A DNA stretch of 32,876 nt from Chroococcidiopsidaceae cyanobacterium CP_BM_ER_R8_30 (GTDB lineage: Bacteria > Cyanobacteriota > Cyanobacteriia > Cyanobacteriales > Chroococcidiopsidaceae), in NCBI GenBank assembly GCA_019244235.1, contig JAFASY010000121.1, positions 1 through 32,876 of the forward strand, in the 5' to 3' direction. Made by a program: the position numbers and the translations under genes. The notes under the pieces were generated by a model, which made no database searches, was not told the origin of the DNA, and saw only the letters and a list, made by a program, of their open reading frames with translations. This document shows positions 10,585 to 14,373 of the stretch, in pieces. How positions within the stretch are numbered: position 1 is the first letter of the stretch; each line of letters starts with the position of its first letter.

Positions 10585-11625
10585 TTACTGATACAACTGC
10601 ATCACATCAGTAATGGATAGTCTAGACTGGACACCAAGCGTTAGTGGGGAAGTATGACCTCGATTGAGATGCTCGGCTGCGGCACAGCCAATCATGGCAG
10701 CATTGTCTGTACAGAATTTAAGTGAGGGAAATAGCACTCTCAGGTTGTGAGCGGCACCAGCAGCTTGGAGGTGCTTTCTTAACCCACTGTTAGCTGCTAC
10801 GCCTCCACCAACGGTAATCGTGTTGAGACGATAGTCAAGGGCACAGGCAATCGCTCGTTTAGCCAGTGAGCGTGCCACAGTCTCCTGAAAACTGGCTGCT
10901 AAATCCTGTATGGAGAATGGTTGTTCATCCTGCTGCAATTGTTGTACTAACCGTAGAACCGCTGTTTTTAAACCACTAAAACTCGAATCATAGGGATGAT
11001 ACCCACCACCTGGTCGGGAAACATTCCCCTCTGGCAGCACAAAAGCTTGCGGATTCCCCAGAGCTGCTAACTTGTCGATGACTGGACCGCCAGGATACCC
11101 TAGTTGCAACAACCTTGCTACCTTATCAAAGGCTTCACCAGCTGCATCATCGCGGGTTTGTCCTAAAGTTTCGTAGCAGCCACAAGCCTTAACATAGATC
11201 AAGCTTGTATGACCGCCAGAAACCAACAAGTTGAGGAACGGTGGTTCCAACTCCGGCTCGTCTAAGTAACTGGCATAGATGTGACCTTCTAGATGATGAA
11301 CCCCCAAAAAAGGCTTTTGATGCACCAGAGCTAAAGTCTTCGCTGCGGTCAATCCTACCAATAGCGCTCCTACTAATCCAGGCGCACAGGTAACTGCAAT
11401 ACCATCAAGACTCGAAATAGGCAGCTGCGCTTGCTCAAGAGCGCAAGCGATCGCTTGATTAATCGTTTCCAAATGTCGGCGCGATGCTACTTCTGGCACC
11501 ACCCCACCATACGGCTGGTGAACGGAAATTTGCGAATAGACGACATTACTACAGACTTGCCTGTCTTGAACAACTGCCACTGATGTTTCATCACAACTTG
11601 TTTCGATCGCTAAAATGCTTGCCAT
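10585..11625 (-). CDS. tsaD: tRNA N6-adenosine threonylcarbamoyltransferase TsaD
   Basis: TsaD transfers the threonylcarbamoyl group from TC-AMP to A37 of tRNAs that read ANN codons, working with TsaB and TsaE. This 346-residue protein has the family length. It shows the ASKHA-fold start [16 protein letters not shown], the metal-binding HxxxH (H111 and H115 in HHLEGH), [26 protein letters not shown] and CTDNAAMIG with the third metal ligand Asp307. All key residues are present. It diverges from psaF, with 237 bases between the start codons. Confidence 0.97.
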
Positions 11626-11862: not shown

Positions 11863-12369
11863 ATGGCTCGACGATTGTTTGCTCTGATTCTTGTGATTGG
11901 TATCTGGTTCAATTTTGCCCCAGCAGCATTAGCGATTGGGGCTGGCCTTGTACCTTGCAGTGAGTCACCTGAATTTCTCCAACGGGCAGCTAATGCCCGT
12001 GCAACGACAGACACGACAGGGGCACAAGATCGATTTAAACGTTACGCTGATTCAGGTGCACTTTGCGGACCAGAGGGTCTACCGCATCTGATCGTGGATG
12101 GTCGCCTCAATCACGCAGGCGACTTCCTGATTCCTAGCATCCTCTTTCTCTATATTGCCGGATGGATTGGTTGGGCAGGTCGTGGCTATCTTAGAGCAAC
12201 CAAAAAAGCCGCAGGAGGTTCTGCTGAAGCGAAAGAAATCAAGATTGATTTGCCTTTAGCTTTACCAATTGCCCTGTCAGGCTTTGCTTGGCCTGTAGCA
12301 GCACTGCAAGAATTTCTGTCTGGGGATCTATTTGCAAAAGATGAAGAAATTCCTGTTTCCCCGCGCTAG
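11863..12369 (+). CDS. psaF: Photosystem I subunit III PsaF
   Basis: PsaF is the 168-residue photosystem I subunit that lies on the lumenal side with one membrane helix; in algae and plants it docks plastocyanin or cytochrome c6. The first 24 residues are a thylakoid-lumen signal peptide (MARRLF...AALA). The mature start is [14 protein letters not shown], with the conserved cysteines of CSES and [11 protein letters not shown]. The trans-membrane part [18 protein letters not shown] and the ending [14 protein letters not shown] are classical PsaF. An in-frame ATG at 11836 would add nine residues before the signal peptide and is unlikely. It is followed by psaJ and then psaL on the same strand. 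Confidence 0.97.
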
Positions 12370-12409
12370 CTTAGCTTAACTGGTTAATTTGTATCGGAGA
12401 ATAATCCAC

Positions 12410-12565
12410 ATGGCGCAGCAAAACAAAGAAGACCAAAAATCTTATTTCCTTCAGTATCTTTCTCTCGCACCAGTTCTTGCCGTTGTTTCGGTGTCAGTTG
12501 CCTTCAGTACCTGGGCTGTATTTAACTACTTTTTCCCCGATCTCCTCTTCCATCCAATGCCATAA
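12410..12565 (+). CDS. psaJ: Photosystem I subunit IX PsaJ
   Basis: This 51-residue gene encodes a single-helix protein: a polar N-terminus (MAQQNKEDQKSYF), then LQYLSLAPVLAVVSVSVAF and a C-terminus of NYFFPDLLFHPMP. The LSLAPVL start of the helix and the FFPDLLFHP ending are diagnostic of PsaJ, which sits next to PsaF and binds chlorophylls and carotenoids. The N-terminal extension is slightly longer than in the 41-43 residue proteins of many species. A GGAGA sits ten bases before the ATG. It starts 40 bases after the psaF stop, so the two are surely one operon. Confidence 0.95.
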   Translation: MAQQNKEDQKSYFLQYLSLAPVLAVVSVSVAFSTWAVFNYFFPDLLFHPMP

Positions 12566-12605
12566 AAGGGTTTTTAAGCGATGTAGCGCTCACTTTCAAA
12601 CTAGA

Positions 12606-12665
12606 AAAATAGGCTTTGAAACTCGTTATCTAATTAACATGAATGTGAGCTTCAAAGCCTATTTT
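12606..12665. repeat. 15-bp perfect inverted repeat between psaJ and psaL
   Basis: AAAATAGGCTTTGAA (12606-12620) and its exact reverse complement at 12651-12665 enclose a 30-base loop. It begins 41 bases after the psaJ stop. It could act as a transcription-attenuating or mRNA-stabilising hairpin separating psaFJ from psaL; the loop is long and no U-run follows directly, so it is not a textbook terminator. Confidence 0.55.
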
Positions 12666-12848
12666 AGCTGTCAATGCATCCACAGATAGATATTGATTTG
12701 ATTAATGTAAAAAATTTGTCTTTTAACTCTTCACTTTATGTTCAATTCAATTAATTTTTCTAAAGTTCGTTACTAAGACTGAAATTCGTACCCATTTGTT
12801 CACTTAAAATGATCCCACAACTGTCATTACTAGATACCAACAAGAAAT

Positions 12849-13376
12849 ATGGCGCAGGCAGTCAACGCATCAAAAGATCGCCCTAGCGATCCCAGGAATC
12901 GAGAAGTCGTCTTTCCGGCATATGGAGATCCACAAATTGGTAACCTAGAAACTCCGATTAACGATTCTAGTCTGAGCAAGTGGTTCATTAATAACTTACC
13001 CGCCTACCGCAAGGGTCTAACTTTGCAGAGGAGAGGCTTGGAAATCGGCATGGCTCATGGCTATTGGCTGTTCGGTCCCTTTGCCAAACTTGGTCCACTT
13101 CGCGATACAGACATTGCTAATCTAGCTGGGTTACTATCAACCATAGGGCTAGTCGTCATCTCGGCTGCTAGTATTGCTCTCTATGCCAATAGCAATCCAC
13201 CTAAACCTGTTGCTACTGTGACAACACCCAACCCTCCCAATGAACTTGTAAGCAAAACAACGGAGGGCTGGAACGAATGGGCTACTGGTTTCCTACTTGG
13301 TGGCCTTGGCGGTGCGGTAGTTGCCTACCTGTTGAATGATTATTTACCAGTCATTCAAAAAGTTTTCGGCCATTAG
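12849..13376 (+). CDS. psaL: Photosystem I subunit XI PsaL
   Basis: PsaL forms the centre of photosystem I oligomers. This 175-residue protein shows the usual N-terminal part (VVFPAYGDPQIGNLETPIN, WFINNLPAYRKGLTLQRRGLEIGMAHGYWL) and membrane helices at about 90-113 and 146-168. Between the last two helices lies a Pro-rich loop (about 114-133, containing NPPKP and PNPPNE). The C-terminus is short and ends KVFGH. From published work on Chroococcidiopsis TS-821 and relatives, a psaF-psaJ-psaL locus together with such a PsaL loop goes with tetrameric rather than trimeric photosystem I. It has its own 283-base upstream region and converges on gmk, with two bases between the stops. Confidence 0.97.
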   Translation: MAQAVNASKDRPSDPRNREVVFPAYGDPQIGNLETPINDSSLSKWFINNLPAYRKGLTLQRRGLEIGMAHGYWLFGPFAKLGPLRDTDIANLAGLLSTIGLVVISAASIALYANSNPPKPVATVTTPNPPNELVSKTTEGWNEWATGFLLGGLGGAVVAYLLNDYLPVIQKVFGH

Positions 13377-13378
13377 TT

Positions 13379-14029
13379 CTAGGAACAGGGAGTAGGAATT
13401 GGGGTTGGGGGACGCTCCCCTTTCCCTTCCTCCCTGCCAAACAAGGCAGCTTCGACGCGACTTAAAGCGGTTTCAAAATTATCATTAATAATCTGAATAT
13501 CAAATTCACCAGCAGCCTCGATTTCTGCTCTGGCACGATCAAGACGCTGTAAAATCGCCACTTCAGAGTCTTGACCTCGACCGCGTAAACGCTGCTCCAG
13601 TTCTACTAGAGAAGGTGGCAAGATGAAAATGCGGAGCGCTGAGGGAAATTTCTGATGGACCTTTCGTGCCCCTTCTAGCTCAATTTCTAGCAATACCCAC
13701 TTGCCCTGGGCGATTTGCTCCGTCACAGGTTTACGGGGAGTACCGTAGTAGTTTCCAGCAAACTCAGCCCACTCTAGTAGTTCATCCGCATCAATCATTT
13801 GTTCAAACTGGCTGCGGCTAACAAAGTCGTAGTGCTGTCCAGCAATTTCATCTGGACGCGGGGAGCGGGTTGTCATTGAGCGCGAGAGGTACAATTCTGG
13901 ATGGCGCTGCAAGAGCGATCTCACTAGCGTACCTTTGCCAACTCCGCTAGGACCTGTCAGTATAATAAGTCTGCCACTGGGCAGGCTTTCCTTCACTATA
14001 ACAGCTGAGGTAGGCAAAACTCGTGTCAT
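13379..14029 (-). CDS. gmk: Guanylate kinase
   Basis: Guanylate kinase phosphorylates GMP to GDP with ATP. The 216-residue protein has the P-loop GPSGVGKGT (26-34), the GMP-binding SRSMTTRSPRPDE, GQHYDFVS, LLEWAEFAGNYYGTP and the lid region LRGRGQDSEV. All family motifs are intact. The C-terminal tail (REEGKGERPPTPIPTPCS) is encoded by GGGAGTAGG / GGGGTTGGGG-type DNA that resembles short dispersed cyanobacterial repeats, so the tail is probably an accidental extension. It follows remA (80 bases upstream on the same strand), a pairing also seen in Firmicutes, and probably shares its transcript. Confidence 0.96.
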   Translation of the reverse strand: MTRVLPTSAVIVKESLPSGRLIILTGPSGVGKGTLVRSLLQRHPELYLSRSMTTRSPRPDEIAGQHYDFVSRSQFEQMIDADELLEWAEFAGNYYGTPRKPVTEQIAQGKWVLLEIELEGARKVHQKFPSALRIFILPPSLVELEQRLRGRGQDSEVAILQRLDRARAEIEAAGEFDIQIINDNFETALSRVEAALFGREEGKGERPPTPIPTPCS

Positions 14030-14109: not shown

Positions 14110-14373
14110 TTAATTGTTGATATGAGGATCGCGACCAATCACAAAGCGATTTGCCACGGTTTCCGGCTGAATTGCCGAAAGGATAACATGGCTAGAGTCA
14201 GTAATAATCACGGCCCGGGTGCGACGTCCATAGGTTGCGTCTATCAGCTGTCCTCGATCTCGCGCATCGGTAATAATACGCTTAATAGGAGCAGACTCTG
14301 GACTGACAATGGCAACCACTCGGTTGGCAGATACAATGTTGCCAAAACCGATGTTGATTAGCTGAATGTCCAT
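14110..14373 (-). CDS. remA: RemA-like DUF370 protein
   Basis: This is an 87-residue protein of the DUF370/RemA family ([32 protein letters not shown], then [25 protein letters not shown]). In Bacillus subtilis RemA is a ring-forming DNA-binding activator of matrix and osmoprotection genes. Conserved arginines (RDRG, YGRRTR) that contact DNA there are present here. Its placement upstream of gmk is conserved from Firmicutes to cyanobacteria. What it regulates in cyanobacteria is not established. No clear ribosome site precedes the ATG. Confidence 0.93.

Follow-up and report, generated by a model that had tools for sequence, protein, structure and literature searches.

Tetrameric photosystem I (PSI) is described for most, if not all, HCR members in a study that prints the code 6QWJ for the tetramer of strain TS-821, and that names 6jeo and 6k61 as tetramers and 1jb0 and 5oy0 as trimers (PMC8760143). 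In Anabaena, Trp45 of the PsaL subunit contacts the PsaB chlorophyll CLA811 across the dimer-dimer (Type 2) interface, an interface that exists only in the tetramer and an association described as weaker, while the PsaL residues T58, F60, R61, N140 and S144 are said to be conserved only in tetramer formers (PMC6821847). A multiproline motif (NPPxP...PNPP) between TM2 and TM3 of PsaL has also been described (PMC8827656, citing Li et al. 2019). White-light membranes of C. thermalis PCC 7203 were reported to be incompatible with homogeneous tetramers, and substantial monomer or dimer was inferred (PMC8827656).

Among trimers, Cyanobacterium aponinum (6vpv) has a large stromal PsaL loop, and the structure that Cao et al. 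2020 obtained from Synechococcus, cited there without a PDB code, is also trimeric (PMC8428864). Trimer-forming Prochlorococcus belong to a group with a TV/T/APNPP motif (PMC8760143). Tetrameric PSI in the lineage considered here is already published, and the prediction made below is well-founded, not new; the window extends the tetramer group by one case, from a separate genus within a known family.

Genomic context of psaF, psaJ and psaL

The window, i.e. the whole stretch of 32,876 nucleotides analysed here, corresponds to contig C151 of a genome of 5.5 Mb in 328 contigs that is 97% complete. The preliminary description had placed psaF, psaJ (51 codons) and psaL consecutively on one strand, which coordinates and Pfam matches confirm, with intergenic gaps of 40 nt between psaF and psaJ and 283 nt between psaJ and psaL. 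These are ordinary PSI genes, correctly read, with the following features in and around them:

10585..11625, minus strand: tsaD, divergent, upstream (PF00814, 317 bits)
11863..12369, plus strand: psaF (PSI subunit III), 168 aa (PF02507, 168 bits)
12410..12565, plus strand: psaJ (PSI subunit IX), 51 aa (PF01701, 47.9 bits)
12606..12665, plus strand: stem-loop in the psaJ-psaL gap, 19-nt arms, 95% complementary (z -3.0)
12849..13376, plus strand: psaL (PSI subunit XI), 175 aa, of tetramer-clade type (PF02605, 203.5 bits; top PDB match 7qco_L, 276.9 bits)
12981..12983, plus strand: codon of PsaL Trp45 (PsaL alignments; contact from PMC6821847)
13185..13268, plus strand: Pro-rich loop of PsaL, residues 113-140, between TM helices 2 and 3 (alignment, predicted helices, motif scan)
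13379..14029, minus strand: gmk (guanylate kinase), convergent, downstream (PF00625, 165 bits)
14110..14373, minus strand: remA-like gene, beyond gmk (PF04025, 130 bits)

The N-terminal hydrophobic stretch of PsaF looks like a signal peptide.

For the neighbourhood, we used 80 named loci, chosen from 144 relatives as those most similar to the window and hence biased towards it. The tree described below includes 18 of these loci, all in the HCR clade; the remaining 62 were assigned to HCR from name and similarity alone. The order psaF-psaJ-psaL recurred in 79 of these best 80 of 144, which argues that the arrangement is not due to chance, and in the 80th (L062) the contig begins just 5' of psaJ. 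On the matching side and strand, tsaD was present in 79 of the 80 and gmk and remA in 75 each, and no psaI match was found in the flanks of any of them. Only the 80 named loci entered the flank-gene counts; an additional flank set of 87 'other' loci was discarded given the HCR duplicates inside it (at least L084, L109, L184, L185, L189, L199 and L200).

The absence of psaI from the window, also noted in the preliminary description, was confirmed. The sole match in the source genome (PF00796, E up to 10) encodes a 39-aa PsaI at positions 3996-4070 of contig C119, so that psaI is unlinked rather than missing. PsaB of the source genome keeps F151, L155, Q158 and F161 (counted on the motif GWLHLQPKFRPS); since we take these partner residues to be conserved in trimer formers too, they do not discriminate. 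The psaA and psaB genes were located on contigs C162 and C328, and an extra N-terminal PsaB piece ends C84 while a C-terminal piece ends C54 (L201-L205), which suggests a second psaB copy split by assembly.

PsaL phylogeny

We divided the 132 rows of our PsaL tree into three sets: 41 in the HCR clade, 12 sister rows closest to it, and a rest of 79, for 75 of which a locus was available. Solved PsaLs served as anchors, two from tetramers (7qco, 6jeo) and four from trimers (6kif, 6vpv, 1jb0, 4l6v). We take chain 7qco_L to be from the PSI tetramer of Chroococcidiopsis sp. TS-821 and 6kif to be the PSI-IsiA trimer of S. elongatus PCC 7942; 4l6v was labelled a trimer via the same row as 5oy0 in the PDB match list. 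The tree left out 62 named loci, ORFs longer than 300 aa that are apparent IsiA-PsaL fusions, identical sequences (140 reduced to 132 rows), the duplicates L199 and L200, and second or weaker PsaL matches of some genomes. The relatives search covered 39 genomes besides that of the source organism, none of which shared its genus code.

The window PsaL fell within the 41-row clade (SH-aLRT 97), inside which were both tetramer anchors and none of the four trimer anchors, and a careful 49-row tree recovered a clade of 20 rows including the window and the tetramer anchors with support of 100/98. Given that the trimer anchors do not form one clade, an initial AU test that placed the window with all four was loose and was replaced by separate tests, one per trimer clade. 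Membership of the window in the elongatus/aponinum trimer clade was rejected (p 0.0004), as was membership in the T. elongatus/Synechocystis trimer clade (p 0.04), and placement with four sister-group rows gave p 0.04. Positions beside Aliterella/Chlorogloea (p 0.55), beside TS-821/Gloeocapsopsis (p 0.34) or outside the other 19 HCR rows of the 49-row tree (p 0.53) were not rejected, so that the window may lie inside the clade or at its base. The trees and AU tests thus did not group this PsaL with those of trimer formers, a grouping that the preliminary description had named as evidence against tetramers.

Matches to solved chains were highest for the tetramers (7qco_L 277 bits, 6jeo 251 bits) and lower for the trimer chains (6kif 170, 6vpv 165, 1jb0 142 and 4l6v 130 bits), a ranking that is not decisive given that a sister-group PsaL without Trp45 (L114) likewise has 7qco as its best PDB match, at 268 bits.

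Interface residues

In Anabaena numbering, Trp45 was present in 41/41 HCR rows, 0/12 sister rows and 2/79 of the rest (L135 and L180, the latter placed close to trimer anchors, in the small-genome group), and in 80/80 named loci (best 80 of 144 relatives); position 45 is Thr in three of the four trimer PsaLs compared and Ala in the other. Four of the five 'bulky' Type 1 residues vary within the tetramer clade, in which Trp45 is invariant. Counted over HCR, sister and remaining rows, the Asn140 equivalent occurred in 39/41, 10/12 and 0/79, Thr58 in 36/41, 2/12 and 0/79, Arg61 in 41/41, 11/12 and 40/79, Ser144 in 32/41, 6/12 and 19/79, and Phe60 in 15/41, 2/12 and 2/79. The combination T-F-R at 58/60/61 was found in 40/80 named loci (best 80 of 144). 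The N-terminal extension, the Pro-rich loop and Asn140 are all three present in the sister group too, in which PsaLs of the L088/L114 type have Ala45.

The window PsaL keeps W45, T58, R61 and N140 and is changed to Q60, T144 and Leu148, and so has three of the five residues in the set T58/F60/R61/N140/S144 (F60Q, S144T), of which F60 itself is found in only the 15/41 clade rows given above. It has a 28-residue loop and Arg61 in place of the trimer-type short loop and Leu61, and the C-terminal trimer tail is absent. Gln60 was detected in 7/41 HCR rows, i.e. the window and six Aliterella/Chlorogloea-type rows, and all seven carry T144, a residue present in 8/41 HCR rows. With this paired change in the Type 1 core, the window and these relatives would have a more polar variant interface. 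Gln60 also occurred in 21/79 'other' PsaLs.

Phe60 was rejected as a tetramer marker, being variable in the clade and present in all six psaI-linked, far-red-looking PsaL paralogs. Two same-family genomes (G001, G012) have a second, psaI-linked PsaL that looks like a far-red paralog and carries A45, T58, F60, M61, Y140 and G144, against W45, T58, M60, R61, N140 and S144 in their primary PsaL. For C. thermalis 7203, trimeric PSI is reported under far-red but not under white light (PMC8827656), in line with this residue split between primary and second PsaL.

Because the HCR clade has one origin, these residue counts represent a correlation with no independent events, and given this single origin and the two outside rows with Trp45, this residue is a marker for which cause is not established. 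Judged from the alignments, Trp45, proposed here as a marker, is sharper than the loop or gene order and testable, being a single residue at an interface said to be tetramer-only (PMC6821847). In the literature covered on PsaL, W45 and the tetramer (subscription papers on the Anabaena tetramer not covered), Trp45 was nowhere presented as diagnostic of the tetramer clade; mentions that resemble W45 elsewhere concern other residues, W454 of IsiA2 (PMC9938196) and PsaA-W455 (PMC8428864).

Comparison with solved photosystems

The TS-821 tetramer (PMC8760143) shares with the window an HCR-clade PsaL with N-terminal PSDPRN, Trp45, T58/R61/N140, a KPVATVTxPNPP loop and a short C-terminus, but its loop has 26 residues rather than 28, and residues 60, 144 and 148 are Leu, Ser and Ile where the window has Gln, Thr and Leu. 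The Anabaena sp. PCC 7120 tetramer (PDB 6jeo, 6k61, 6tcl; PMC6821847) is alike in PsaL clade, T58, R61, N140 and Trp45, and differs from the window at F60 (Gln in the window), S144 (Thr), N141 (Glu) and P55 (Lys). The tetramer of Cyanophora paradoxa is of a different kind, with PsaK-PsaL contacts and shorter PsaL ends (PMC8967866).

S. elongatus PSI (6kif) has a 28-residue loop with TTPNPP and Arg61 like the window, but no N-terminal extension, and Thr45, Ser58 and Ser140. Similarly, the C. aponinum trimer (6vpv; PMC8428864) resembles the window in its long stromal PsaL loop (26 residues) and Arg61, but is trimeric and has Ala45, Ser58, Ser140 and no N-terminal extension. The Thermosynechococcus and Synechocystis trimers (1jb0; 4l6v/5oy0) share the PsaL family and differ in a 20-residue loop, Leu61, Thr45, Ser140 and the trimer C-terminal tail. 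PsaLs of the Aliterella/Chlorogloea CCALA 695 type (L003, L005, L112) are alike in family, Gln60, Thr144, ~74-77% identity and psaF-J-L order, and unlike in their loops, which have TTANRVP or TTANKVP and no PNPP. We know of no structure for PSI of this type.

Gene order and the Pro-rich loop

The preliminary description had based its tetramer prediction on locus order and on the PsaL loop. For gene order across the tree, flanks of ~0.3 to 3 kb were read, and psaI and psaJ were queried with the short proteins of the window genome; given the varying flank lengths and these queries, bare psaL calls (9/75 other loci, 4/12 nearest kin) may hide misses. The 38 HCR loci comprised 31 with psaF-J-L, five with J-L and two with F-J-J-L. 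The J-L rows reflect a contig end in L062 and the 1.5-kb flank limit in L096 and L101 (two rows each), and the wider loci L199 and L200 do show psaF. Among the 12 sister loci, seven had psaF-J-L, four psaL alone and one F-L. The remaining 75 had psaL-psaI (24), psaI-psaL (19), psaI upstream on the opposite strand (6), psaF-J-L (16), F-J-L-I (1) or psaL alone (9), so that psaL was linked to psaI, on either side or strand, in 50/75, counting F-J-L-I.

The locus-order claim thus stands in one part, as absence of psaI linkage tracks HCR, and not in the other, as the psaF-J-L order occurs in 17/75 outside loci and in 7/12 of the nearest kin. Given that it is common to several outside groups, this order looks older than the HCR clade, and gene order was rejected as a predictor of oligomeric state. 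In the single F-J-L-I locus (L166, in G044), psaF-psaJ-psaL-psaI stand in succession and the PsaL belongs to the T. elongatus/Synechocystis clade; the arrangement may be ancestral or a product of merging.

The presence of a Pro-rich loop between the last two PsaL helices was borne out, with 28 residues, six of them Pro, between Tyr112 and Trp141 (ANSNPPKPVATVTTPNPPNELVSKTTEG). The loop sits between predicted helices 90-115 and 138-172 of a fold model (mean pLDDT 54.8) that is too weak for anything except helix positions. Both halves of the NPPxP...PNPP motif are present, a double motif found in 10/41 HCR rows, 2/12 sister rows and 0/79 of the rest in the 132-row set, and therefore specific but insensitive for the tetramer clade. 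Loops with at least four Pro were far more widespread (41/41 HCR, 12/12 sister rows, 35/79 rest), occurring also in 9/17 outside rows with psaF-J-L order; chain 6kif, from a trimer former, has a TVTTPNPPQEL loop of 28 residues, equal in length to that of the window. As a sign of tetramers, the loop is consequently weak, and it was rejected as an oligomer predictor. The Pro-rich loop and psaF-J-L order alone do not predict the PSI oligomer.

Predicted oligomeric state

The tetramer prediction itself is supported by the PsaL clade and the interface residues, while the gene order and loop on which it had been grounded are weak. We consider it probable (roughly three in four) that the window PsaL is of the tetramer type, forming a Type 1 dimer without trimer closure, with dimers joined through the Type 2 interface. 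According to the mechanism proposed for Anabaena (PMC6821847), two PSI monomers would be held together by the stromal and lumenal faces of PsaL (Type 1). The N-terminal extension, Arg61, the Asn140 equivalent and the short C-terminus would impede ring closure by a third monomer, so that dimers form; two dimers would then associate via weaker Type 2 contacts including Trp45 and the PsaB chlorophyll CLA811. Given HCR membership and the published HCR tetramers (PMC8760143), we infer that PSI in the source organism is present as dimers and tetramers in white light. That a gain of Trp45, pinning the dimer-dimer interface to the PsaB chlorophyll, and not the Pro-rich loop, turned the PSI trimer into a tetramer in this lineage is a speculative proposal, to which we give perhaps one chance in four.

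Formation of the Type 1 dimer with failure of the weak Type 2 contact, leaving PSI mainly as dimer and monomer in the membrane, is an unlikely outcome. It is in keeping with the white-light membranes of C. thermalis 7203, which lack a homogeneous tetramer population (PMC8827656), and with the weaker Type 2 association (PMC6821847), and Gln60 and Thr144 might make the Type 1 core pack less tightly; however, Trp45 is retained at the Type 2 contact in the window, and TS-821, the nearest solved relative, yields tetramers (PMC8760143). A trimeric PSI as in many cyanobacteria, with the Pro-rich loop merely a widespread trait, is very unlikely: while Pro-rich loops (35/79 PsaLs, and chain 6kif), psaF-J-L order (17/75 loci) and Gln at position 60 (21/79) all occur outside the tetramer clade, the clade placement and AU tests argue against it, as do Trp45, the Asn140 equivalent, the N-terminal extension, the lack of a trimer C-terminal tail, and the one PsaL match in the 97% complete assembly, with no trimer-type paralog seen. 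That the locus is chimerically assembled, or that a trimer-forming genome acquired this PsaL laterally, might be suspected from the 328 contigs but has a negligible chance of being correct, as the flanks fit the HCR neighbourhood (tsaD, gmk and remA in 79, 75 and 75 of the 80 named loci, best 80 of 144) and the genome is classified alongside others of its family that have the same PsaL type.

Additional PsaL copies in related genomes

A profile search of the whole source genome (97% complete assembly) returned a single PsaL match, whereas seven same-family genomes contained PsaL-ended ORFs of 485-498 aa (L208-L214). These IsiA-PsaL-like ORFs, with the PsaL-like domain at their end, are apparent IsiA-PsaL fusions, the PsaL-like end being the part searched. 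Two same-family genomes (G010, G004) carry two tandem, diverged psaL genes 3' of psaF-psaJ (L199, L200; also L064, L096, L101). A public MAG labelled Tatlockia sp. (L004) contains an Aliterella-type psaL locus; Tatlockia is a relative of Legionella, and the record is therefore probably mislabelled or mixed.

Stem-loop between psaJ and psaL

A scan for promoters and terminators gave no excess over shuffles (2 vs. 2.4; 4 vs. 2.2, sd 1.9), and the terminator scan did not list the psaJ-psaL stem-loop, whose loop is too long for that scan. The stem-loop was rejected as a dispersed repeat, as the search gave nothing outside its own arms but partial matches of 19-21 nt. Hairpins with perfect arms (at least 9) were present in 68/80 psaJ-psaL gaps and in 6/80 base-shuffled gaps (one shuffle each), counted in the window and 79 of the named loci L002-L081 (best 80 of 144), L064 being omitted for its overly long gap. 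GAAACTC or its complement occurred in 42/80 gaps of the same set. The stem-loop might serve to terminate or process psaFJ transcripts, and psaL may thus form a transcription unit of its own.
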